A stretch of DNA of 64,000 nucleotides from Chitinophaga pinensis (GTDB lineage Bacteria; Bacteroidota; Bacteroidia; Chitinophagales; Chitinophagaceae). The stretch spans positions 1 through 64,000 of the forward strand of contig CAMCAY010000003.1 of the NCBI GenBank assembly GCA_945872815.1, given 5' to 3'. Positions 4,705 through 29,026 of the stretch are shown here, piece by piece (position 1 is the stretch's first letter; each line of letters begins with the position of its first letter). Both the position numbers and the translations under genes were made by a program. Under the pieces are notes generated by a model that worked only from the letters and a program-made list of their open reading frames with translations, was not told the origin of the DNA and did not search any database.

Positions 4705-7700
4705 ATGAAAGAAAGTATTTCACGAGTAATATTTTTTATAATTTGTATTTTTTCTGCCGGAGAATTATTCAGTCAATTGGTTATTAATGAGGGATCCAAT
4801 AAAAATTATTCAACCATTGCTGATGAAAATGGTGATTATGAGGATTGGATAGAAATTCATAATACAGGTTCTATAGCAATCGATTTACATGGTTATAGTT
4901 TAACTGATAATAATAATCCTAAAAAATGGGTTTTTTCTCATCAAAAATTAGAAGCCAATCAATTTATCATAGTGTATTGCAGTGGAAAAAATAGATTTGT
5001 ATCAAAACCATTTTCAAACGTTTTGCATGATACTACTTTTCAACCCCAAATTGGGTGGAATGTACACCAATTTACAACTCCTTTTTATTGGGATGGATAT
5101 TCAAATATTGTTTTGAACATATGTACTTTCAGCGATAGTTATACCAATAATTCTGTTCATTTGCAAAGTACAACTTCATTTTATTCTTCCTTGTTTTCAT
5201 ATGTAGATGGGGGTGTGGCTTGCGGTTTCATGGATGGCGGGACTTCCAAAACACGTCCAAATATTCGTTTCAACAATAAAAACATTGGCGGTGGTACCCT
5301 TCAAAATACGGAGACAGAATATCCTGCTCCTTATGGTAATTGGTATTGGAGCGCTCGTCATCAATTATTATTCCGTGCAAGCGAATTAATTTCTTCAGGT
5401 TTAACAGCTGGATTCATTACTTCAATATCATTTGATGTGCTTTCAACATTTCCAACGCAATACAGATACATTGACTTAAGCCTTTCAAATACCGGTAGAG
5501 ATGAACTTACTAACGAATTTATACCTCTAGAAGGAAATTTTAATCACACTAACTTTAAAATTAGTTCTGAAGGTGAAACCATAAGGCTATTCAATCCTGC
5601 GGGCAATTTGGAAAGCTCACTTTATGTAAACTGCGGACCAGGTTATGATGTGAGTTCAGGATTATTACCCAATGCCTCTACCAATGTAAAAAAATTTCCA
5701 AATCCCACACCAGGTATTAGCAATAATGGGTCACTATCAGCTGATTCGTACACGAGTGCTCCGGTTTTTTCAAAAAGTAGCGGAGTATACACCTCCTCAC
5801 AGATAGTGAATATCATCAACACAAATTCACCTGATGCTTTGATTTATTACACATTGGATGGCAGTGAACCTGATACTACTTCAATTTTGTGGAATGGAAA
5901 CGCTGTATACATTACTCAAACAACTATACTGAGGGCAAAAGCATATAAAACTGGATTTATTCCAAGCACTGTAACTTCAGCCAGTTTTTTATTCAATATC
6001 AATCATTCTACTCCTATCATTTCAATAATAAGTGATCCTGATAATTTATTTGGAACAACAGGAATGTTCGACAATCCTTCAGTTGATATGCTCAAAGCGG
6101 CATCGGTTGATTATTTTGATTCTTCCAACTCTCATCAATTGATTTGTTCCAGAAGAGTTGGTATAATCATGGATGGAGGTTGGGGTTCTAGAGGCCTTCC
6201 ACAGAAACCATTTCGTATCAAATGGGATGATGGGGTATTAGGCCAAGGACCAATTATGGAAAATATAATTCCAGACAGACCCAATAGGAATCAGTACAGT
6301 GATTTTTTTATGCGAAATGGAAGTAATAATTATTTGATTCTTCCATACAAAGACGCAGCTCAAGTTAAAATGATGGCAGATGGTTCATACAATTATTATG
6401 CTGCCTGGAGACCAGTATCTGTATACATAAATGGTACTTATTGGGGATTGTATGAGTTAAGGGAAAAATACAACAATGAAATGTTTGAACTATCTGAGAA
6501 AGCATCAGAAAATAGTATTGAAATATTATCCTCTAGTGCTCAATATGGGTTCAGATTAAGAGCGGTTGAGGGTAATGTTCAGCATTTTTACGATTCATTC
6601 AATTCATTCTCGCTTTTAAATCCAAATGACGACGATTTTTGGTCAAAAGCAGATCGTTATTTCGACTTGAAATATTATGTAGATTATATCATAGCAGAAT
6701 TATGGATGAACAACGCTGATTGGGGTGCTAATTACAATAATATAAAAATTTATCGTTCAGACGCTACTGGATTCAGATGGAGGTACTGTCTTATGGACAT
6801 GGAATATGGACTTCTTCCTAATCCACAGAATTTATACGATTGCCGTTTTGATTTATTAGGTCAGTTATTGAATGAATGGAAGGTTGTAAGTCCAAACAAT
6901 CCACATTTGTCAATTTTTTGGAAATGTATACAAAATGATTTTTTTAAAAATTACTTTATCAATCGTTTTGCAGATCAGATGAATAGTTTATACTTGACAT
7001 CTAGACTTCTCTCTATTGAAGGGGAAATGTACCTGCGTACTTATTCTGAAATGGCCAATGAGTATAGAAGGTGGGGTGATCCCAATGATTTGATTGGTCA
7101 GATGAATCAATTTCAACAAAATCACCTTTTATTTCGTAATGATTTATTGTGTCGTCCAGAGAATGCAAGAAATTTTATTCAATTTAATTTTAATTTGCCG
7201 AAGCAAGTATCACTTAATTTGGATGTAATTCCAAGGGATGCAGGCAGAATAAAAGTAAGCACATTAACTCCAAAAACATATCCATGGCAGGGATATTATT
7301 TTGATGGAGTGCCAATTGGGTTGGAAGCGATAGCTAAACCTGGCTTTAGATTCACCCACTGGACTTCAAATGGCTTGATTAAAGATACATTAAACAGAGT
7401 AATTCTTGATACTTTATCAAAAATGAATAGTCTAATAACTGCACATTTTGAACCAGCATTTGATCTAAAACCATTATCATTGCTTGTTTATCCTAATCCC
7501 GCCCATAATCAACTAGGGATAAAATCTTATCAAGAAATAGGAGAGGCTGCAGAAGTATTTTTATTGGATGTACTTGGGAGAAAAATAATTGTTCCATATA
7601 CGTATTCTGATCCGAAAGAAAGTCATCTAAATATTTCATCTTTAAGTAAAGGGTATTATTTTATTCATTTTGTTACCAAAGATGGAAAAATATTTAGGGG

Positions 7701-17010: not shown

Positions 17011-17256
17011 TTAAATATAATCTTCCGCAGACTCATTTATGGAATCTAATCTTTCCTTTATTCCTTCTTTAAAAGAGTATAAACCATCTTTGCCTCTTTG
17101 TATTGTTTGCTTTACATTGTCTGAAAGCTTATTCCCAGCATCTTTTATTTTTTTTCTGGTTTCAGTTCCTTTGTTTGGCGCAAATAATACGCCTAATAAA
17201 ATACCCGTTGCTAATCCTGCACCAACACCTACTAAAATTCTTGTAGTATTTTCCAT
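17011..17256 (-). CDS. YtxH domain-containing protein
   Basis: The 81-residue protein has one N-terminal glycine-rich membrane segment (RILVGVGAGLATGILLGVLFAP) followed at once by NKGTETRKKIKDAGNKL, the diagnostic YtxH signature. The remainder is an amphipathic helix. YtxH proteins are general-stress proteins of unknown mechanism. It is first in a minus-strand run: ytxH, holin-like, coiled-coil protein, dodecin, lipoprotein. A weak half-match to the island's TTGAT-N4-GTCA motif lies 85-98 bp upstream (17341-17354). Confidence 0.88.
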   Translation of the reverse strand: MENTTRILVGVGAGLATGILLGVLFAPNKGTETRKKIKDAGNKLSDNVKQTIQRGKDGLYSFKEGIKERLDSINESAEDYI

Positions 17257-17366: not shown

Positions 17367-17400
17367 TTAAAAAAATGAAAGCCGGATAGAAATCCGGCTC
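17367..17400 (-). terminator. Intrinsic terminator downstream of the mla operon
   Basis: On the minus strand AGCCGGAT and ATCCGGCT form a perfect 8-bp stem with a 4-nt loop (stem arms at 17380-17387 and 17392-17399), followed by a short spacer and a T run (A run on the plus strand at about 17370-17376). It lies ~150 bp after the mlaD stop and separates the ldh-mla operon from ytxH. Confidence 0.75.
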
Positions 17401-17550
17401 GTATCTATTATCCAATATCCTATGAAAAACCTGAATCAAAAGTATATGTTTATGTACCTTGAAAAAATGACTATAATCAGTAAATAAAATGATTCTATTT
17501 TAATTTGAACAAGATTAAGCAGCTGCATATAAATTATCGAGTTTAGCTTT

Positions 17551-18522
17551 TTAATTTTTTTTACTACTTTTTTTAAAGTACCCACGAAATAAAAAGCTGT
17601 GTTTTAATGCTTCCATATTTAAATTGAATGCCCTTGTGCCATTTTCAATATTCTTTATTGAGCTGGTTATTGTTACGCCTGTTATACTGTCTTTTAGCAG
17701 CTTATTGAATGCACCATCACCCTTCATTAGTTCATAGTTAATATTTTTAATTGTCTCTTTGGCTTCATCAGACAATTTAATAGCAGAATTGCTGATATTA
17801 TTTACATTATTTAAAGTGTTTTTTATTGAAAGTGTAAACGCTGTATCATATAAAATTGTTCCAATTGAACCATTGCCCGATTTAATGTGATCCATTATGG
17901 AATTTGCATTTTTTACAATGTTGTTAATTTCTATACTCGCCGAATGTAAATTTGATAAACTCAAATGAATATTTTCTACAATGCTGTTATCATTGAGCAA
18001 TTTCCATAGAATGTTGCTTTGGTTAAAATCAAAAGTTGTTTTTTTTAAGTTCTTAGCGATAAGGTAAATGTCATTATTTGTTTTTGAAAACGTTCTGAGT
18101 AAATCATCAGTATCTATGGGTCTTCTGGAACTTAAGATATCATCTTCTTTTACAAGCGGCGCATTAAGTTTTGTAGAAGTAATATTAACAACTTTATTTC
18201 CTACTAATCCATCAGTGCCAATAGAAACAATAGAATTATTTCGAATGATTTTTTTCATTTTATTTTCAATGATTATTTCCACTTCCAAAACTGTGTCATT
18301 CAACACTTCAATTTTATTTACAGACCCTATGTCAATACCCGCATATCTTACATTATTTCCGATTTTTAAACCTTGTACATTTTCAAACCTTGATTTAAGC
18401 GTGAAATTTGACCCAAAAAAGTTTCTGTTTTTACCAATCATGTAGAATAGCAGTATAAGAAATGCCAAACTCGCTAGTATGAAAATCCCTAATTTGATGT
18501 TATTGAATATTTGTTTCCCCAT
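17551..18522 (-). CDS. mlaD: MCE-domain protein, MlaD-like
   Basis: The 323-residue protein has one N-terminal membrane anchor (LGIFILASLAFLILLFYMIG) and an MCE domain at about residues 37-115, with FENVQGLKIGNNVRYAGIDIGSV and TDGLVGNKVVNI. A long helical tail follows, predicted to extend into the periplasm. MlaD hexamers bind phospholipid for transport between the inner and outer membranes. It is the third gene of a compact mlaE-mlaF-mlaD operon (12 bp after mlaF), so the complete inner-membrane ABC complex apart from MlaB is encoded together. Confidence 0.88.
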   Translation of the reverse strand: MGKQIFNNIKLGIFILASLAFLILLFYMIGKNRNFFGSNFTLKSRFENVQGLKIGNNVRYAGIDIGSVNKIEVLNDTVLEVEIIIENKMKKIIRNNSIVSIGTDGLVGNKVVNITSTKLNAPLVKEDDILSSRRPIDTDDLLRTFSKTNNDIYLIAKNLKKTTFDFNQSNILWKLLNDNSIVENIHLSLSNLHSASIEINNIVKNANSIMDHIKSGNGSIGTILYDTAFTLSIKNTLNNVNNISNSAIKLSDEAKETIKNINYELMKGDGAFNKLLKDSITGVTITSSIKNIENGTRAFNLNMEALKHSFLFRGYFKKSSKKN

Positions 18523-18533
18523 GTTTATTCTAT

Positions 18534-19304
18534 TTATTCAAAAAACTGTTTGACTTTTGGATCAGCATTTGATTTTAATTCCTGATAATTACCTGTTGCA
18601 TAGCATTTTCCTTCCAAAAGAATTATTATTAAGTCGCTGGCAGATTTAACACAGTTCATGTCATGTGAGATAATTAGCGAGGCAGTATTGTACTTCGTTT
18701 TAATCTCAATCATTAAATTTATTATTTCCCTTCCTGTTATTGGATCAAGGCCTGTAGTAGGTTCGTCATATAGGATAATGTCAGGTTTAAGAATAAGTGT
18801 TCTTGCTATTGCAATTCTTTTTCTCATTCCACCTGAAAGCTCAACAGGCATCATATCTATGGTGTGGACAAGCCCAACATCCGTTAATGCCTGACTAACC
18901 ATTTCGTTTATTTTTTCCTGAGATAATTTTATCCAATGTCTTCTCAATGGAAATTCTAAATTTTCTCTGACAGTCATAGAATCATACAATGCATTACTCT
19001 GAAAAAGAAAGCCAACTTTTGCTCTTATCTTATCTAAAGCAGTAGCATTTAAATTGCGTATTTCTTTGCTGAAAATCCTTATTGATCCTTTGTCAAATTT
19101 TAATAATCCAATAATACATTTTATTAATACCGATTTTCCAGAGCCTGATTTTCCAAGAACAACTATATTTTGTCCTTTCGATAGAGTTAAATTGAAATCA
19201 ATCAATACGTGGTTATTTCCAAATGATTTATAAAGATGGTTGATTTCCAAAACTGTTGTTTCCTCACTTACATGGTTGTATTCATTTTTATTAACTTCTG
19301 ACAT
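18534..19304 (-). CDS. mlaF: Mla-type ABC transporter ATP-binding protein
   Basis: The 256-residue ATPase carries Walker A GKSGSGKS at residues 51-58, the ABC signature LSGGMRKR, Walker B ILYDEPTTGLD and an H-loop histidine in IISHDMN. The GMRKR form of the signature and the D-loop DEPTTGLDP are typical of MlaF/Ttg2A ATPases. It energises phospholipid transport with the permease encoded just upstream (14-bp gap) and MlaD downstream. Placement after a D-lactate-type dehydrogenase links envelope lipid maintenance to the low-oxygen/stress programme proposed for this region (inference). Confidence 0.93.
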   Translation of the reverse strand: MSEVNKNEYNHVSEETTVLEINHLYKSFGNNHVLIDFNLTLSKGQNIVVLGKSGSGKSVLIKCIIGLLKFDKGSIRIFSKEIRNLNATALDKIRAKVGFLFQSNALYDSMTVRENLEFPLRRHWIKLSQEKINEMVSQALTDVGLVHTIDMMPVELSGGMRKRIAIARTLILKPDIILYDEPTTGLDPITGREIINLMIEIKTKYNTASLIISHDMNCVKSASDLIIILLEGKCYATGNYQELKSNADPKVKQFFE

Positions 19305-19318
19305 TATTATTGTTATTA

Positions 19319-20089
19319 CTAATTAAAACCCAACAGTTCTGTTATTTGCACTGCAAGCAAATCAAGAATAAAGATCATAATGGAAGAAACTACAACCGCT
19401 GAATTTGCGCTTTTACCAACGCCTTCAGTTCCTTTGCTGCTATAATAACCTTTGTAACATCCAATGATACCTACTGCAAATCCAAAAAAATATGTTTTTA
19501 TAAATGCAGGTAAAACATCCCTGAATTCTAATGAATCAAATACTTGAATCCAGAAAAAATTGAAGTTTGTATCTCCTTTTATATTGACTCCTAAGTATGA
19601 ACCATACAAAGAAATGGCATCACTTAAAATAGCGAGAACAGGTAACATGAGTGTTGCTGCCATAACTCTTGAAACCACGAGATACTTAAAGGGGTTTGTA
19701 CCACTAACTTCCATTGCATCTATTTGCTCTGTTACTTTCATTGATCCTAATTCTGCTCCAATACTAGAACCTATTTTTCCTGCAAAAATCAAAGATGTTA
19801 TCACTGGTCCAATTTCACGTATTATAGCTATGCCTACAATAGCAGGCAATTGTGATTCAACCCCATAGTCAATCATAAACGGCCTCAATTGCATTGTTAA
19901 TACCAATCCCATGATAAAACCGGTAAGTCCTACAAGGGGCAGTGATTTATATCCAATTACATAACATTGTTTAAACAATTCGTTTATTTCATAGGGAGGT
20001 ATAAAAAACCTGCTAAGAAATTTTCCGCTGAATTTGCTTAAGCTTCCAACCTCAGCAAAAAATGATTTTAATAAAATTGAATTATTCAT
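19319..20089 (-). CDS. mlaE: Mla-type ABC transporter permease
   Basis: The 256-residue polytopic protein has the MlaE fold: LPLVGLTGFIMGLVLTMQ early, FAGKIGSSIGAELGSMKVTEQIDAMEVSG in the coupling region, and a C-terminal GCYKGYYSSKGTEGVGKSAN loop. The ORF track begins at 20152, but the ATG at 20089 (MNNSILLK) is preferred: the longer version would overlap the dehydrogenase gene by 43 bp, and family members start near this point. With 20089 the gap to the upstream gene is 20 bp, consistent with an operon ldh-mlaE-mlaF-mlaD. Confidence 0.92.
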   Translation of the reverse strand: MNNSILLKSFFAEVGSLSKFSGKFLSRFFIPPYEINELFKQCYVIGYKSLPLVGLTGFIMGLVLTMQLRPFMIDYGVESQLPAIVGIAIIREIGPVITSLIFAGKIGSSIGAELGSMKVTEQIDAMEVSGTNPFKYLVVSRVMAATLMLPVLAILSDAISLYGSYLGVNIKGDTNFNFFWIQVFDSLEFRDVLPAFIKTYFFGFAVGIIGCYKGYYSSKGTEGVGKSANSAVVVSSIMIFILDLLAVQITELLGFN

Positions 20090-20109
20090 ACTCTTTCTAT
20101 GAATCTTAG

Positions 20110-21099
20110 TTATTGAATTTCGTTTTCGCAATGCTGATTCTTGTCCCAACATTGTAGGTTACTGATGTTTATCTCAGCAATTTTTTCAAGAGCCTCTGTT
20201 GTTGCAAAAGCCTGATGTGGCGTGATTAATACGTTTTCGAATGATAACAATTTAATTAGTAAACTATCTTTTATTTTTTTTGATGATAGATCTTGAAAGA
20301 AAATATCTTTTTCATTCTCATATACATCTGCACCATAATACCCTATCTCTCCTTTCTGTAAATATTTAATAAGATCTTTCGTATTTACTATCGCACCTCT
20401 GGAAGTATTAATAATCATTGCTTCTTTTTTCATCAGTGATAAACTATCTTCATTGATGATATATTTAGTCTCTTTATTTAATGGGATATGTATGCTGATA
20501 ATATCAGATTCTTTATAAATATTTTCTAGTGATGTATATTTTAAATTGAATTGATTTTCTAAGTATTTATTTTTTTTGATGTCAAATCCTATAAGATTAC
20601 ACCCAAAACCGGAGAGAATTCTACTCACAACGCTGCCAATATTTCCTGTCCCTATAATTCCTACAGTTTTATTGCTCATATCAAACCCTATTAGTCTGTC
20701 AATTTTGAAATTATATTGATGAACTAGTTTGTCTGCAATAGATACTTTTCTGTTAAGGACAAGCATCAATGCTACAGCATGCTCTGCAATTGCATTTGGG
20801 GAATATTTTGGAACATTTGCTACTTTAATGCCCAATCTTTCTGCAGCATTTAAATCAATATTATCATATCCTGAAGCCCTTATGGCAATGTAATTAATAC
20901 CAATTTTTGATAGTTTATTCAATACTTCGGCACTTGCATCATCAGATGTGAAAATTGAAATGGCATGGAATCCTTTTGCTAAAATGGCGGTTTTTTCAGA
21001 AAGACTTTTTTCGCAATAAGATATTTCAATTGATTGGCTATTTGCTTTTTTAATAAATTTCATTTCAAATGTATGACTACTATAAAACAACACCTTCAT
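20110..21099 (-). CDS. D-2-hydroxyacid dehydrogenase (D-lactate dehydrogenase-like)
   Basis: The 329-residue NAD-dependent enzyme has the Rossmann motif GIIGTGNIGSVVSR near residue 146. The catalytic Arg lies in NTSRGAIVNT, the Glu in DVYENEKDIFF and the His in ITPHQAFATTEAL. The inserted DVYENEKDIFFQDLSS loop and overall length are like fermentative LdhA. It would reduce pyruvate to D-lactate, re-oxidising NADH when respiration is limited; other 2-oxoacids remain possible. It is first in an operon with mlaEFD. Upstream lies an FNR-like site centred 29.5 bp from a near-consensus -7 box, consistent with induction at low oxygen (inference). Confidence 0.9.
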   Translation of the reverse strand: MKVLFYSSHTFEMKFIKKANSQSIEISYCEKSLSEKTAILAKGFHAISIFTSDDASAEVLNKLSKIGINYIAIRASGYDNIDLNAAERLGIKVANVPKYSPNAIAEHAVALMLVLNRKVSIADKLVHQYNFKIDRLIGFDMSNKTVGIIGTGNIGSVVSRILSGFGCNLIGFDIKKNKYLENQFNLKYTSLENIYKESDIISIHIPLNKETKYIINEDSLSLMKKEAMIINTSRGAIVNTKDLIKYLQKGEIGYYGADVYENEKDIFFQDLSSKKIKDSLLIKLLSFENVLITPHQAFATTEALEKIAEINISNLQCWDKNQHCENEIQ

Positions 21100-21136: not shown

Positions 21137-21144
21137 CAAAATTT
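21137..21144 (-). promoter_or_regulatory. Putative -7 box AAATTTTG for the ldh-mla operon
   Basis: On the minus strand this reads AAATTTTG, one mismatch from TAnnTTTG. It is 38 bp before the start codon. Its first base is 29.5 bp from the centre of the FNR-like site at 21167-21180, the same distance as in the uspA and BON promoters. Confidence 0.45.
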
Positions 21145-21166
21145 GATTTTCTGTTATTCTGCGAAA

Positions 21167-21180
21167 GTGATGAGAGTCAA
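21167..21180. promoter_or_regulatory. FNR/CRP-like operator, GTGATGAGAGTCAA
   Basis: It matches the recurrent pattern TTGAT-N4-GTCA(A/T) with one mismatch in the left arm. It is the proximal site for the minus-strand ldh promoter. Its centre is exactly 21 bp (two helical turns) from the next site at 21188-21201. Confidence 0.5.
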
Positions 21181-21187
21181 TGATTCA

Positions 21188-21201
21188 TTGATTGAAGTCA
21201 T
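21188..21201. promoter_or_regulatory. FNR/CRP-like operator, TTGATTGAAGTCAT
   Basis: It matches TTGAT-N4-GTCA exactly and lies between the divergent ldh-mla and uspA operons. Its centre is 29.5 bp upstream of the perfect -7 box TATGTTTG of the uspA promoter, close to the class II activator position (about -41.5 from the start site). Confidence 0.6.
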
Positions 21202-21223
21202 TGACTTTAAAAAATAACTTAGA

Positions 21224-21231
21224 TATGTTTG
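21224..21231 (+). promoter_or_regulatory. -7 box TATGTTTG for the uspA operon
   Basis: It matches TAnnTTTG exactly. It gives a leader of about 130 nt before the uspA ATG at 21372. The spacing to the upstream FNR-like site repeats that of the ldh and BON promoters. Confidence 0.55.
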
Positions 21232-21371
21232 TTTCAATTCTTTTCTTGAAAGATGTTTGATTTTCTTTCTTTTTATAAATAAAAAAATTAATTATAGAGT
21301 CTATTTTGAAAAAATACATATTGATTTTCGAAAATACTATAACAGAAAAAACCACTAAAAAAAGGTAAACC

Positions 21372-22196
21372 ATGAAAAAAATATTACTGCCATTTGACGG
21401 AATTCATTTTTCTGAATCTGCTTTTGATTTCGCTAAAAAATTACATGAGAAAAATCCAATATTATTAACGGGTGTTTTTCTTCCTCAGATTAGTTATGCA
21501 AATGTTTGGAGTTATGCTGATGGAATGGGAGGTCCATTATTTGTTCCTGCCCTGGAAGAATCAGATAAAGAAGTTATTGATAAAAATATTGAAAAATTTG
21601 AAGAGTTGTGCAAAAGAAATCAAATAGAGTTTAGAGTACGTAAAGACTTTACTGATCTAGCTATGCCTGAATTGAAAAAGGAGACCAGGTTTGCTGATTT
21701 AATGATTATAAGTGGCCAGTCATTTTATGAAAATATGGGTTCAGGAGATCCCAATATATATCTTAGGGATGCATTGCATGACATTGAATGTCCGGCCATA
21801 GTAGTTCCAGATCATTATACCTTTCCTTCCAATATCATCCTTTCTTATGATGGTTCCGAATCATCGGTATTTGCAATCAAACAATTTGTCTATTTATTAC
21901 CTGAATTGTCTGAGTGCAATACAATGTTGATTTATGTAACTACAGAGAATGGAAATGATATTCCTAAGGAACCATACATCGAAGAATACTTAACAAGACA
22001 CATAAAGGATCTTACTATTTCAAAACTTGACATGGATCCAAGGAAATATTTCTCAAAATGGATTGCAGATAAAAAATCTTCTCTCTTGATAAGTGGTTCA
22101 TTCAGTAGATCAGCAGTTTCCTCCTTGTTTAGAAAGAGTTTTGTTCTCGATATAATTAAGGAACATAAAATACCTGTATTTATTGCCCATAAATAA
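21372..22196 (+). CDS. Universal stress protein, tandem-domain UspA family
   Basis: The 274-residue protein has two Usp-like halves. The first begins KKILLPFDGIHFSESAFDFA and includes ADLMIISGQSF; the second begins NIILSYDGSESSVFAIKQF and ends with the GSFSRSAVSSLFRKS segment, where Usp proteins have the G-x9-G-S/T ATP-binding pattern. Loss of the strict GxGxxG nucleotide motif suggests weak or no ATP binding in part of the protein. It is the first gene of a usp-usp-ydjM-like run and has its own promoter with an FNR-like site. Tandem UspA proteins are commonly induced under oxygen limitation in many bacteria (established for Pseudomonas and Mycobacterium, inferred here). Confidence 0.9.
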   Translation: MKKILLPFDGIHFSESAFDFAKKLHEKNPILLTGVFLPQISYANVWSYADGMGGPLFVPALEESDKEVIDKNIEKFEELCKRNQIEFRVRKDFTDLAMPELKKETRFADLMIISGQSFYENMGSGDPNIYLRDALHDIECPAIVVPDHYTFPSNIILSYDGSESSVFAIKQFVYLLPELSECNTMLIYVTTENGNDIPKEPYIEEYLTRHIKDLTISKLDMDPRKYFSKWIADKKSSLLISGSFSRSAVSSLFRKSFVLDIIKEHKIPVFIAHK

Positions 22197-22203
22197 TAAT
22201 TGT

Positions 22204-23043
22204 ATGAATAAGATAATAGCTGCATTTGATGGGCTTAAATATTCAGAAAGCACGGGCGACTATGCAATAGACATTGCTAAAATTACAGATTCAAAGATTA
22301 CAGGCGTTTTTTTAGACGATAGAACCTACACGAGTTTTAAAATATATGATTTGGTCTTGGATCATGGAGTATCGGAGCAAAAGCTAAGATTACTGAAAGA
22401 AAAAGACAATCAATCAAGAATGATTTCTGCTAATAAATTTGAAAATATGTGCAGAAAATCAGGAGTAAACTGTAATATACATCACGATAAAAATGTGGCA
22501 TTACAAGATTTGTTGCATGAAACAATTTTTGCTGATTTATTGATTATTAATCATACAGAATCGTTTACACATTATGATGAAGAATATCCTACGAGATTTA
22601 TTAGAGATTTACTTAGTAACACCCAGGCGCCCGTTTTTTTAGTTCCTGAAATTTATAGAAAAATTGAAAAATTGATTTTGTTGTATGACGGAACTAATAC
22701 TTCAATTTATGCAATAAAAATGTTCAACTATTTGTTTCCCCAATACAAAAGTTTACCTGTTGAATTGATTTGTATTAAAAATATGGACAGCTCACTTCAT
22801 ATTCCAGATTATCAATTATTGAAAGATTTTTTGAAACGTCATTTTGAAAATATAAAGTACACTGTTTTAAAGGGTTTACCAGAAATTGAAATCGTTAATC
22901 ATTTAAAAGATGAAGATAGTAATGTAATTGCTATATTAGGTGCTTACAGAAGAACGATGTTGTCAAGGTGGTTTAAATCAAGTATGGCAGATGCTCTAAT
23001 CAAAGAATTGAAACTTCCCTTATTTATTGCTCATAACAAATAA
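22204..23043 (+). CDS. Universal stress protein, second tandem-domain copy
   Basis: The 279-residue protein starts at the ATG at 22204 (MNKIIAAFDGLKYSE), which aligns with the start of the preceding Usp; the track's upstream start overlaps that gene and is rejected. It has two Usp halves, the second beginning KLILLYDGTNTSIYAIKMF and ending ILGAYRRTMLSRWFKSS. It is clearly a paralogue of the upstream gene by domain order and end motifs. The 7-bp gap points to co-transcription. Function is unknown beyond stress association; paralogous pairs may form heterodimers. Confidence 0.88.
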   Translation: MNKIIAAFDGLKYSESTGDYAIDIAKITDSKITGVFLDDRTYTSFKIYDLVLDHGVSEQKLRLLKEKDNQSRMISANKFENMCRKSGVNCNIHHDKNVALQDLLHETIFADLLIINHTESFTHYDEEYPTRFIRDLLSNTQAPVFLVPEIYRKIEKLILLYDGTNTSIYAIKMFNYLFPQYKSLPVELICIKNMDSSLHIPDYQLLKDFLKRHFENIKYTVLKGLPEIEIVNHLKDEDSNVIAILGAYRRTMLSRWFKSSMADALIKELKLPLFIAHNK

Positions 23044-26889: not shown

Positions 26890-27327
26890 TTAATAAACTA
26901 CAATTTTTGAAGGTGGATTTTTTTCATTTTTATTTGTTTTTGGAATATGCATTTTTAATATTCCATGACTATATTCTGCATGAATAAAAGATATATCTGC
27001 ATTTTTTGGAAGTGGAATTTTTCTTTCAAATATTTCATAATCAAATTCACGAATAGTTACAATCTCTTCAGTGCTTTTATCTATTTTTTTATGAATTGCG
27101 AATACGGAAAGTATATTTTGCTCACTTTCCACAACTATGTCTTGTTTTTCGATACCTGGCAGTGCTATTTCTATTTTTAATAACTCCGGCATTTCAGTAA
27201 AATTTACTAGCGGAATTTTCTTCTTGTTTTTTATACTTTTCTTTTTTATTTCATCCTGCGAAATTGTTGTAATGAATTCACCTGGATATATATGACTATC
27301 AGTATAATTTTTTATTAGGGCTTTCAT
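26890..27327 (-). CDS. Small heat-shock protein, Hsp20/alpha-crystallin family
   Basis: The 145-residue protein has an alpha-crystallin domain at about residues 48-135. LLKIEIALPGIEKQDIVVE opens it, FERKIPLPKNAD follows and YSHGILKMHIPK closes it, the A/VxLPxxV and GxL motifs of sHSPs. It holds unfolding proteins in a refoldable state without ATP. It is first in a minus-strand operon with the phosphorylase (9-bp gap) and PLD. The 135-bp divergent region upstream contains an FNR-like site, and no heat-shock CIRCE element is visible. Confidence 0.9.
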   Translation of the reverse strand: MKALIKNYTDSHIYPGEFITTISQDEIKKKSIKNKKKIPLVNFTEMPELLKIEIALPGIEKQDIVVESEQNILSVFAIHKKIDKSTEEIVTIREFDYEIFERKIPLPKNADISFIHAEYSHGILKMHIPKTNKNEKNPPSKIVVY

Positions 27328-27386: not shown

Positions 27387-27400
27387 TTGATATAAGTCAT
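27387..27400. promoter_or_regulatory. FNR/CRP-like operator, TTGATATAAGTCAT
   Basis: It matches TTGAT-N4-GTCAT exactly, identical in both arms to the uspA site. It lies midway between the divergent hsp20 operon and the 27463 gene. On the plus strand a near-consensus -7 box TATATTTT starts at 27421, 27.5 bp from the site centre. Confidence 0.55.
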
Positions 27401-27462: not shown

Positions 27463-27852
27463 ATGTCTATTACAATTGCGAAGCATTACTACAATGAATT
27501 AAATGGCTGGGAAAGATCATTGTCATTTCATCTGAATGATATTTTGGAACTTGAAAAAAGTTTAAGATTAATCATTAGTAGAAACTCTATTGTAGATATT
27601 GCCGCAAAAGTTGAAGTACACCAGTTATTGATTGATAAAGTAACTGATAAGATGCATTTGTTGCAAAATGAAATAACTTCTCAAGAAAAATTACTTTTGA
27701 AAGAAAATAAATTTATTCCGGATCAAGAAATTGCAGGCTCAATAGAAAAAAAGCAAGTCAACTTAACACAACGTGTAAAACATATTGAAAAAGAATTTGT
27801 AGATGTGAAATTTTATTGCAATGCATTCCTTTCTGAAATGCTTAAAAAATAA
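27463..27852 (+). CDS. Hypothetical helical protein
   Basis: No family is recognised. The 129 residues are almost wholly predicted helix, with heptad-like spacing in LNDILELEKSLRLIISR, KVTDKMHLLQNEITSQEKLLL and KKQVNLTQRVKHIEKEF, so a coiled-coil or helical bundle is likely. No signal or membrane segment is present; it is probably cytoplasmic. Its promoter shares the FNR-like site with hsp20, which suggests it belongs to the stress programme. It ends at a terminator hairpin that faces the opposite strand. Confidence 0.6.
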   Translation: MSITIAKHYYNELNGWERSLSFHLNDILELEKSLRLIISRNSIVDIAAKVEVHQLLIDKVTDKMHLLQNEITSQEKLLLKENKFIPDQEIAGSIEKKQVNLTQRVKHIEKEFVDVKFYCNAFLSEMLKK

Positions 27853-27927: not shown

Positions 27928-28602
27928 TTAATCTTCAAAAGCATATTCCGGCTCTTCAATAACCAATTTATTTTCTACAGTTGTAACTCCAGGTGCAGAC
28001 CAGACAGCATTTTCTGCATCTTCTTTTTCGGCAAACGAACGAACCTTGCCTCTTATTATTACTTTACTTCCAATAACATCCGCAGAAATCTTTGCTGCAT
28101 CAATATTTGCACTCCTCTGGAAACTCGCATTAATTTTTAATTGTAGCTCATAAGGTGTTACTTTTGGCTTTACTGCAATTAAATTACTGACAAACTTTAC
28201 TCCTGCTAAATTCTCAACTGATGTTTTAGCTTGGTTTCTTTGATATTCCCATTCTACCTCACCTTCTAATTTCACATTTCCATCTTCAACACTAACTTTA
28301 ACCTTATCTTCAGGGATCATGGTATGCCATTTCAATGCATTAATAATCGCTTCGGCAATTTCAGCGTCTGTTTTTTTGTAAGCTGGAGAAATTCCAACCT
28401 GAATGTCTTCGGCAATAGCCTTCACACCGGAAACTTTTTTTACTGTTTTTTCTGCAAGTACTTTTTTGGAATAAGTATCTACCTGACCAGAAAGAGTTAC
28501 TATTCCATTCTTTACAGAAACACCTATTTGAGAAGAATTTAGAAACGGTTCCCACCTCAATTGCTCAGTAACATCTTTTTGAATTTCAATATCAGTTTTC
28601 AT
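27928..28602 (-). CDS. Triple BON-domain protein (OsmY-like)
   Basis: The 224-residue protein consists of three BON domains, about residues 4-70, 78-145 and 150-220. Each has the repeat pattern VxVxxGxVxLxGxV and GVxxVxNxI: GVSVKNGIVTLSGQV, KVSVEDGNVKLEGEV and the third, more divergent KVIIRGKVRSFAEKEDAE. There is no obvious signal peptide (start MKTDIEIQKDVTEQ), so unlike E. coli OsmY it is probably cytoplasmic or peripheral. BON domains are thought to bind membranes or stabilise envelope complexes under osmotic stress. Two FNR-like sites lie upstream. Confidence 0.85.
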   Translation of the reverse strand: MKTDIEIQKDVTEQLRWEPFLNSSQIGVSVKNGIVTLSGQVDTYSKKVLAEKTVKKVSGVKAIAEDIQVGISPAYKKTDAEIAEAIINALKWHTMIPEDKVKVSVEDGNVKLEGEVEWEYQRNQAKTSVENLAGVKFVSNLIAVKPKVTPYELQLKINASFQRSANIDAAKISADVIGSKVIIRGKVRSFAEKEDAENAVWSAPGVTTVENKLVIEEPEYAFED

Positions 28603-28669
28603 TTTATAAAGATTTTGTTGTTAAAAAATATCGATGTTTCAAAATAACAAAAATTACCATCGTTATTAA

Positions 28670-28683
28670 ATGACCTGAATCAG
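28670..28683. promoter_or_regulatory. FNR/CRP-like operator near the BON promoter (CTGATTCAGGTCAT on the minus strand)
   Basis: Read on the minus strand it is CTGAT-TCAG-GTCAT, one mismatch from TTGAT-N4-GTCA(T/A). Its centre is 29.5 bp upstream of a -7-like TTATTTTG (28647-28640, minus strand). A second, better site starts 22 bp further upstream. Confidence 0.5.
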
Positions 28684-28691
28684 ATTTTAAA

Positions 28692-28705
28692 TTGACTGAT
28701 ATCAA
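28692..28705. promoter_or_regulatory. FNR/CRP-like operator, TTGATATCAGTCAA on the minus strand
   Basis: This site differs by one base from the E. coli FNR consensus TTGAT-N4-ATCAA and fits this island's TTGAT-N4-GTCA pattern exactly. It is the distal of two tandem sites at the BON promoter. Confidence 0.55.
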
Positions 28706-28816
28706 AAGCAGTTTTATTTATGACTGAGTGATTATAATTATAAATAATTCTGACAACCTTCATTTATTCTTGTTTTTTGTTTGGTTTATTTTGTTAGGTA
28801 CTCTCAATGATTAAAA

Positions 28817-29026
28817 ATGAAATCTAATAAAACAAAAGATGCCAAAAAGGGAATCAAAAAATATGATATGCCTGAATGCAATCCAGAGTTTAATCCTGAT
28901 GTAATTCCTGATAGTGAAATTGCCGGAAATGAAGTTTTTGATTTGATAGACATAGTAAATATAAACGGACAAGATTTGATTATTGAAAACGATCAATATC
29001 AAAAAAAAGAGGAAGTTGATGAATGA
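28817..29026 (+). CDS. Small acidic hypothetical protein
   Basis: No family is recognised. The 69 residues begin with a Lys-rich stretch (KSNKTKDAKKGIKKYD) and continue with an acidic part containing PECNPEFNPDVIPDSE and EVFDLIDIVNINGQD. It is probably intrinsically disordered with one short hydrophobic strand. It is placed as real because it starts with ATG 9 nt after another stop-free gap, is in the same orientation as the PEBP gene downstream, and the antisense ORF of similar length is much less protein-like. Confidence is modest. Confidence 0.5.
   Translation: MKSNKTKDAKKGIKKYDMPECNPEFNPDVIPDSEIAGNEVFDLIDIVNINGQDLIIENDQYQKKEEVDE

Follow-up and report, generated by a model that had tools for sequence, protein, structure and literature searches.

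A pair of CRP-type sites shared by the divergent usp and ldh-mla promoters of Chitinophaga pinensis, with a receiver-CRP protein as the probable regulator

Introduction

Activators of the FNR and CRP type in Escherichia coli occupy positions near -41.5 and -61.5 (class II, class I and class III promoters). The enterobacterial FnrS is a short, terminator-ended RNA that is transcribed from an FNR-family-dependent promoter. To our knowledge, the oxygen-limitation response of most Bacteroidota is poorly described outside the gut genera. The core regulon of alphaproteobacterial FixK/FnrL comprises cytochrome oxidase genes, a heavy-metal P-type ATPase, an oxygen-independent heme-biosynthesis enzyme and UspA (PMC2908626), and the oxygen-utilisation regulon of Myxococcus xanthus NmpRSTU places USP, cbb3, CcoI-type ATPase, HemN and hemerythrin genes under two-component control (PMC11841059). 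CRP-type activation and FixK-like regulons are already known; a search of the open-licence literature found no description, which is weak evidence of absence, of a regulon in Bacteroidota governed by a response regulator with a receiver and a CRP-type DNA-binding domain (REC-CRP) through promoters of the kind analysed here. The window under study is a stretch of 64,000 nucleotides of C. pinensis (assembly GCA_945872815.1, contig CAMCAY010000003.1, positions 1 to 64,000), in which two universal stress protein genes are divergent from an ldh-mla gene group for a lactate-type dehydrogenase and lipid transport.

Results

Two palindromes of the form TGAY-N4-RTCA were read directly from positions 21137-21231, namely GTGATGAGAGTCAA (21167-21180, centre 21173.5) and TTGATTGAAGTCAT (21188-21201, centre 21194.5), with 21 bp between their centres. 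On both strands, 29.5 bp separate the centre of the proximal site from the start of the -7 box that belongs to it (counted to its first base), so that the usp/ldh-mla arrangement is symmetric about position 21184 (Table 1). The first-pass annotation, which had described two FNR-like sites at exactly these distances, was correct to the base. The ldh box departs from the TAnnTTTG consensus at its first base, AAnnTTTG being kept there in three related species, and counterparts of the site TGATTGAAGTCA were present in the related genomes G012, G005, G011 and G029. At another locus (L180), a promoter of this type is immediately followed by an MlaE-family gene. A further palindrome in the space between the sites, TCAATGATTCATTGA, which arises from the local symmetry of the region, was considered as a third site and ruled out, as it is not conserved in relatives.

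Table 1. Positions of the predicted regulatory elements and genes in the window.
Feature	Position	Strand	Remarks
-7 box TATGTTTG, usp promoter	21224..21231	+	exact TAnnTTTG; top matrix match in window
CRP-type site TGATTGAAGTCA	21189..21200	+	proximal for usp (29.5 bp), distal for ldh-mla (50.5 bp)
CRP-type site TGACTCTCATCA	21168..21179	-	proximal for ldh-mla (29.5 bp), distal for usp (50.5 bp)
-7 box AAATTTTG, ldh-mla promoter	21137..21144	-	AAnnTTTG, same place in G012, G005, G011
Universal stress protein gene, first of two	21372..22196	+	Pfam Usp E 2e-4, just below cut-off; orthologues 40-66% identity
Second universal stress protein gene	22204..23043	+	same direction as first usp
D-2-hydroxyacid (lactate-type) dehydrogenase gene	20110..21099	-	Pfam 2-Hacid_dh, 2-Hacid_dh_C
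MlaE/MlaF/MlaD-type genes after ldh	17551..20152	-	same strand as ldh; ORFs named from sequence
-7 box TACTTTTG, small-RNA promoter	17437..17444	-	pattern and matrix match
Proximal CRP-type site TGATTATAGTCA	17468..17479	-	29.5 bp from box; degenerate distal site 17490-17501
Putative small RNA gene, 67 nt	17370..17436	-	intrinsic terminator at end; multicopy family member
81-aa small-membrane-protein ORF	17011..17256	-	about 110 bp beyond small RNA terminator
Tandem pair TGATATCAGTCA-N10-TGATTCAGGTCA, BON promoter	28671..28704	-	only exact 22-bp tandem pair in genome
-7 box TTATTTTG, BON promoter	28640..28647	-	29.5 bp
BON-domain protein gene, three BON domains	27928..28602	-	
Second tandem pair + box TTATTTTG	28729..28793	+	divergent from BON promoter; before 69-codon ORF 28817-29026
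Single site TGATATAAGTCA	27388..27399		between HSP20 (26890-27327, -) and 129-aa ORF (27463, +)

The genome-wide tests were pattern and family searches. The first-pass annotation had proposed a scan for the site plus a -7 box at the set distance. TGAY-N4-RTCA-N23-TAnnTTTG with 0-1 mismatch gave 12 matches on both strands of the 2.42-Mb genome, and four of these (the small-RNA promoter at 17437, ldh at 21137, usp at 21189 and BON at 28640) fell in one 11.3-kb part of the window, where about 0.06 would be expected if matches were evenly scattered. Allowing up to 2 mismatches, 179 matches were obtained in the genome versus 122 for the reversed pattern; matches with 0-2 mismatches beyond the island (among them an ABC transporter, DUF2520, a response regulator and OMP) occurred at near-background frequency and were kept out of the regulon. 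The single site between the HSP20 gene and the ORF at 27463 was rejected as a full promoter, its box being unconvincing with 2 mismatches. When a scoring matrix trained on 98 promoters, all from other genomes, was applied, the usp promoter ranked first in the window with 30.6 bits and ldh scored 24.0 bits; five window promoters scored 22.2-30.6 bits, while the best score in 20 Markov-shuffled 64-kb sequences was 19.4 bits.

Regions upstream of usp orthologues in relatives carried two tandem sites per promoter, 22 bp apart and at 29.5 and 51.5 bp from TAnnTTTG, a pair which revealed a two-site rule that is not visible from one genome. Across 13 island stretches the site-to-box distances peaked at 29.5 bp (17) and 51.5 bp (12), the mean count per distance being 0.36, and the spacing of site pairs peaked at 22 bp (14 cases). 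The same distances emerged from 80 other loci, independently fetched and chosen only for encoding the regulator, with peaks at 51.5 bp (61) and 29.5 bp (32) and a pair spacing of 22 bp (39); these counts are of loci, not independent events, and the effect goes far beyond the relatedness of single promoters. Boxes picked by their distal site showed the proximal site, and vice versa, and five control motifs gave no spacing peak in the 80 loci. The peaks at 29.5 and 51.5 bp thus indicate that each promoter uses both sites and that the pair is common to usp and ldh-mla. The original allotment of one site to each promoter has accordingly been replaced by a near site (29.5 bp) and a far site (50.5 bp here, 51.5 bp in relatives) for each. 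Four species, the focal one (G000), G012, G005 and G011, retain the shared pair together with the two boxes; both sites are perfect in G012, where the usp and ldh promoters each read 29.5/51.5, and the usp-side distance is 30.5 in G005 and G011. No site was found in the usp promoter of G028, a genome without a REC-CRP orthologue.

In the focal genome, which is 99.85% complete, a single 352-aa protein is both the only one with a cNMP-binding domain and the only one with an HTH_Crp match above cut-off; it is composed of a receiver, a cNMP_binding domain (Pfam 1.2e-21) and an HTH_Crp domain (HTH_Crp_2 4.7e-12); its best PDB match is a Crp/Fnr-family protein (2gau, E 2.5e-34). The cNMP-binding fold and the HTH_Crp domain place REC-CRP in the CRP/FNR superfamily, and the TGA-N6-TCA sites, at about -41.5 from the predicted starts, are consistent with that superfamily. 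Glu317 and Arg321 of the recognition helix are invariant, as expected for TGA-N6-TCA sites. As in two-component response regulators, the phosphorylation residues are conserved, with Asp52 and Lys104 invariant and Thr/Ser at position 82; Asp9 is likewise invariant, and a kinase is linked. REC-CRP contains 1-3 Cys, of which only Cys51, a residue of the receiver domain, is invariant, and this does not fit the [4Fe-4S]-ligating cysteines of FNR; the residues aligned to the Arg-Ser of the phosphate-binding cassette are Glu/Asp-Thr/Ser, which does not fit cAMP binding as in CRP.

Orthologues of REC-CRP occur across the Chitinophagaceae and also in Dyadobacter, Runella and Larkinella, and in several relatives the gene lies 2-16 kb from usp. 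Near-complete genomes with REC-CRP contained 2-65 pattern matches (median about 8), and those without it 0-7 (median 1; Mann-Whitney p about 3e-6, not phylogeny-corrected). This co-occurrence and the linkage to usp tie REC-CRP to the sites. Five genomes without a full-length REC-CRP match (G002, G020, G021, G024 and G054) still had 6-13 pattern matches; three of them are 65-86% complete, and stand-alone CRPs exist in relatives. Contigs may be missing in such cases, or a stand-alone CRP may act at these sites. Elsewhere in the focal genome (G000:C1, L108 5532-5596), a tandem pair and box precede a 141-aa coiled-coil-like ORF (5650-6075) convergent with the REC-CRP gene; in relatives, promoters of this kind are repeatedly followed by short coiled-coil-like ORFs, which form a six-member cluster. 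A contig labelled as the betaproteobacterium Azovibrio restrictus (L139, JANLJF010000116.1) carries a Bacteroidota-type kinase/REC-CRP locus very like L140, and is probably a mislabelled or contaminated MAG.

A histidine kinase is encoded directly upstream of REC-CRP in 76 of the 80 loci, and in the focal genome this kinase has 598 aa and two PAS domains and shares the strand of REC-CRP. The PAS domains of this kinase have no heme-ligating histidine as in FixL, and its closest relatives also lack the FixL/Dos-type heme motif; by a strict motif, FixL/Dos-like heme PAS domains were found in 34 of 84 related kinases, and the L141 kinase aligns to FixL including the heme histidine.

The genes that follow 103 promoters, almost all of them from relatives, were inspected, and 98 promoters were scanned. 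Among these genes we found 24 fused CcoN/CcoO cbb3 oxidases, 10 PAS kinases, nine USP and six HSP20 genes, together with CcoI-type ATPases, ScdA/hemerythrin, HemN-type radical SAM, DoxX and MlaE genes. With its cbb3, CcoI, HemN and USP members, the predicted gene set of relatives fits an oxygen-limitation regulon of the FixK/Anr/FNR type. The PAS kinase behind the promoter is often the kinase of the pair itself, which implies autoregulation. Terminator-like hairpins behind some cco promoters lie, as we read them, inside a short reading frame that resembles ccoS. Membership in the focal genome extended only to USP, ldh-mla, BON and the small RNA: in relatives, 24 scanned loci have the same promoter ahead of ccoNO, whereas none was found on searching the focal ccoNO (L204, G000:C4:28342-29631) and a second COX1 operon.

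The promoter at 17437-17501 on the minus strand was initially read as that of a ytxH-like gene, a reading which was dropped because a terminator follows the promoter. Its box does not open directly into a gene; next to it lies ATTCAGGTTTTTCATAGGATATTGGATAATAGATACGAGCCGGATTTCTATCCGGCTTTCATTTTTTT, a short unit without coding sequence that a terminator closes (fold z -3.1), and the promoter was re-read as that of a putative small RNA. The same core and terminator were present in G012, in G011 (four copies) and in G029, in which one copy replaces ldh and has the site pair in common with usp. In G011 (L117 6184-6641; C26 about 21184-21641), a 144-bp promoter/RNA/terminator unit forms 3.2 tandem repeats behind an MlaD-like gene, and similar multi-copy arrays were seen at L206, L209, L211, L217 and L219. 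A covariance model detected 1-19 copies per genome in 88 of the 88 same-genus genomes searched, and also in a few others. The terminator stem contains five pairs with compensatory change and the 5' core (GGUUUUUCAUAGGAUAUUGGAU) is nearly invariant. Rfam gave no match at E<=1 for the window stretch, and a best E of 0.098 for the copies of relatives (26 bits versus a cut-off of 111).

A CRP-type site of at least 7/8 at the class II distance from the box ending at the RNA start was found in 40 of 60 aligned copies, which represent 20 loci, mostly of close relatives, the chance of such a site being 0.65%. Remoter copies had no CRP-type sites, nor had two to three weaker copies in the focal genome (L235, L236, L237; G000:C60, C63, C31), and the RNA family thus seems older than its REC-CRP control. 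When the small RNA was compared by duplex energy with 98 gene starts, no convincing target emerged; the top-ranking match was a 125-aa ORF antisense to a longer ORF.

Discussion

The sites, their spacing and conservation, the sole regulator, its linkage to a kinase and the regulon of relatives were derived from sequence, and from these we infer binding, activation, control by phosphorylation and a signal. The best overall explanation, in which we have considerable confidence, is a single divergent region whose CRP-dimer sites serve both promoters, with REC-CRP as the likely binder. The sites, each of which would take up one CRP-family dimer, are separated by two helical turns, and the pair would be read in both directions, by usp and by ldh-mla. 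If the -7 box is centred near -7, the sites would fall at about -41 and -62, so that each promoter would have one dimer in a class II position, touching RNA polymerase, and one in a class I position. REC-CRP, as the only CRP/FNR-type protein of the genome, is most likely to bind there; the PAS histidine kinase of the adjacent upstream gene would phosphorylate it, which probably strengthens its dimer formation or binding, and the phosphorylated protein would switch on usp-usp, ldh-mla, the BON gene and the small RNA together. The first-pass annotation had envisaged class II activation by an FNR/CRP-family regulator and recommended a search for its homologues. That search led to exactly one protein; the CRP/FNR-type sites and the class-II-like position were retained, and the one candidate for the regulator is a REC-CRP response regulator, not an iron-sulfur FNR.

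It is improbable, in our judgement, that the palindromes belong to a different transcription factor, for instance a CRP homologue of the stand-alone type or a response regulator outside the CRP family, while REC-CRP has other targets. The architecture does occur in some genomes in which REC-CRP was not detected, and relatives have stand-alone CRPs; however, the focal genome has no second cNMP-binding protein, and linkage and co-occurrence favour REC-CRP. Since the sites are common to both promoters, mutual interference is conceivable, and the two sites could form a repressing rather than an activating complex at one or both promoters. This we consider more improbable still, as 29.5 and 51.5 bp are the classical class II and class I activator distances and the sites overlap neither boxes nor starts. 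Single motif matches are common in this AT-rich genome, as the counts at up to 2 mismatches illustrate, but an origin by chance or from simple AT-rich repeats is scarcely credible in view of sharp spacing peaks in independent loci, peakless control motifs and matrix scores above those of all shuffles; the earlier argument that equal spacing on both strands is unlikely by chance is thereby upheld.

A variant of the REC-CRP explanation, compatible with its binding part, keeps the regulator and sites and assigns the switch here to a signal other than oxygen, such as redox, nutrient or envelope state, in a general stress island. We regard this as a genuine possibility, though the less likely one. 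The focal kinase and its closest relatives lack the heme motif found in many related kinases, the focal ccoNO lacks the promoter, and the island genes are stress and envelope genes; on the other hand, the regulon of relatives is the textbook oxygen-limitation set, with usp and HSP20 as shared members. As the switch turns on high-affinity cbb3 respiration in relatives, the most probable signal is a shortage of oxygen or limited respiration. The presumed role of oxygen limitation is supported through the regulon of relatives; we infer that it is the ancestral signal and, given the kinase and ccoNO of the focal organism, only a likely one there.

On balance we favour the view that Bacteroidota run an oxygen-limitation/stress regulon by a fused FixJ/FixK-like REC-CRP acting at tandem class II plus class I sites, and that in the Chitinophagaceae clade of the window this regulon drives a multicopy family of ~65-nt RNAs, with the core GGUUUUUCAUAGGAUAUUGGAU, as a functional counterpart of FnrS. 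The analysis offers a specific regulator with its kinase, a binding motif, the grammar of the promoter and a list of genes, all of which are testable in culturable relatives such as Chitinophaga and Dyadobacter. It also brings to light a widespread family of putative small RNAs that Rfam does not contain, some of its members being wired into the same switch.

Compared with known systems, the RNA at 17370-17436 resembles FnrS in being short, terminator-ended and predicted to be made from an FNR-family-type promoter; unlike FnrS, with which it has no sequence relation, it belongs to a multicopy family, often in tandem arrays and without an Rfam entry. REC-CRP shares with E. coli FNR and CRP the TGA-N6-TCA geometry and the recognition-helix Glu and Arg, but has no iron-sulfur cysteines, carries Glu/Asp at the cAMP-binding arginine and would be controlled through its receiver domain. 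Like M. xanthus NmpRSTU, the system would place a similar gene set under a two-component pathway; NmpRSTU has an NtrC-like regulator, a protoglobin heme sensor and no CRP output domain. With FixLJ-FixK/FnrL it has in common the TTGAT-N4-ATCAA-type sites, the core regulon and, in many relatives, a FixL-type PAS histidine kinase. In contrast to FixLJ-FixK, its tandem sites are 22 bp apart, the promoter has a Bacteroidota -7 box and the focal kinase lacks the heme histidine; moreover, the receiver and the CRP-type DNA-binding domain lie in one protein, so that FixJ-like and FixK-like roles appear to be fused.
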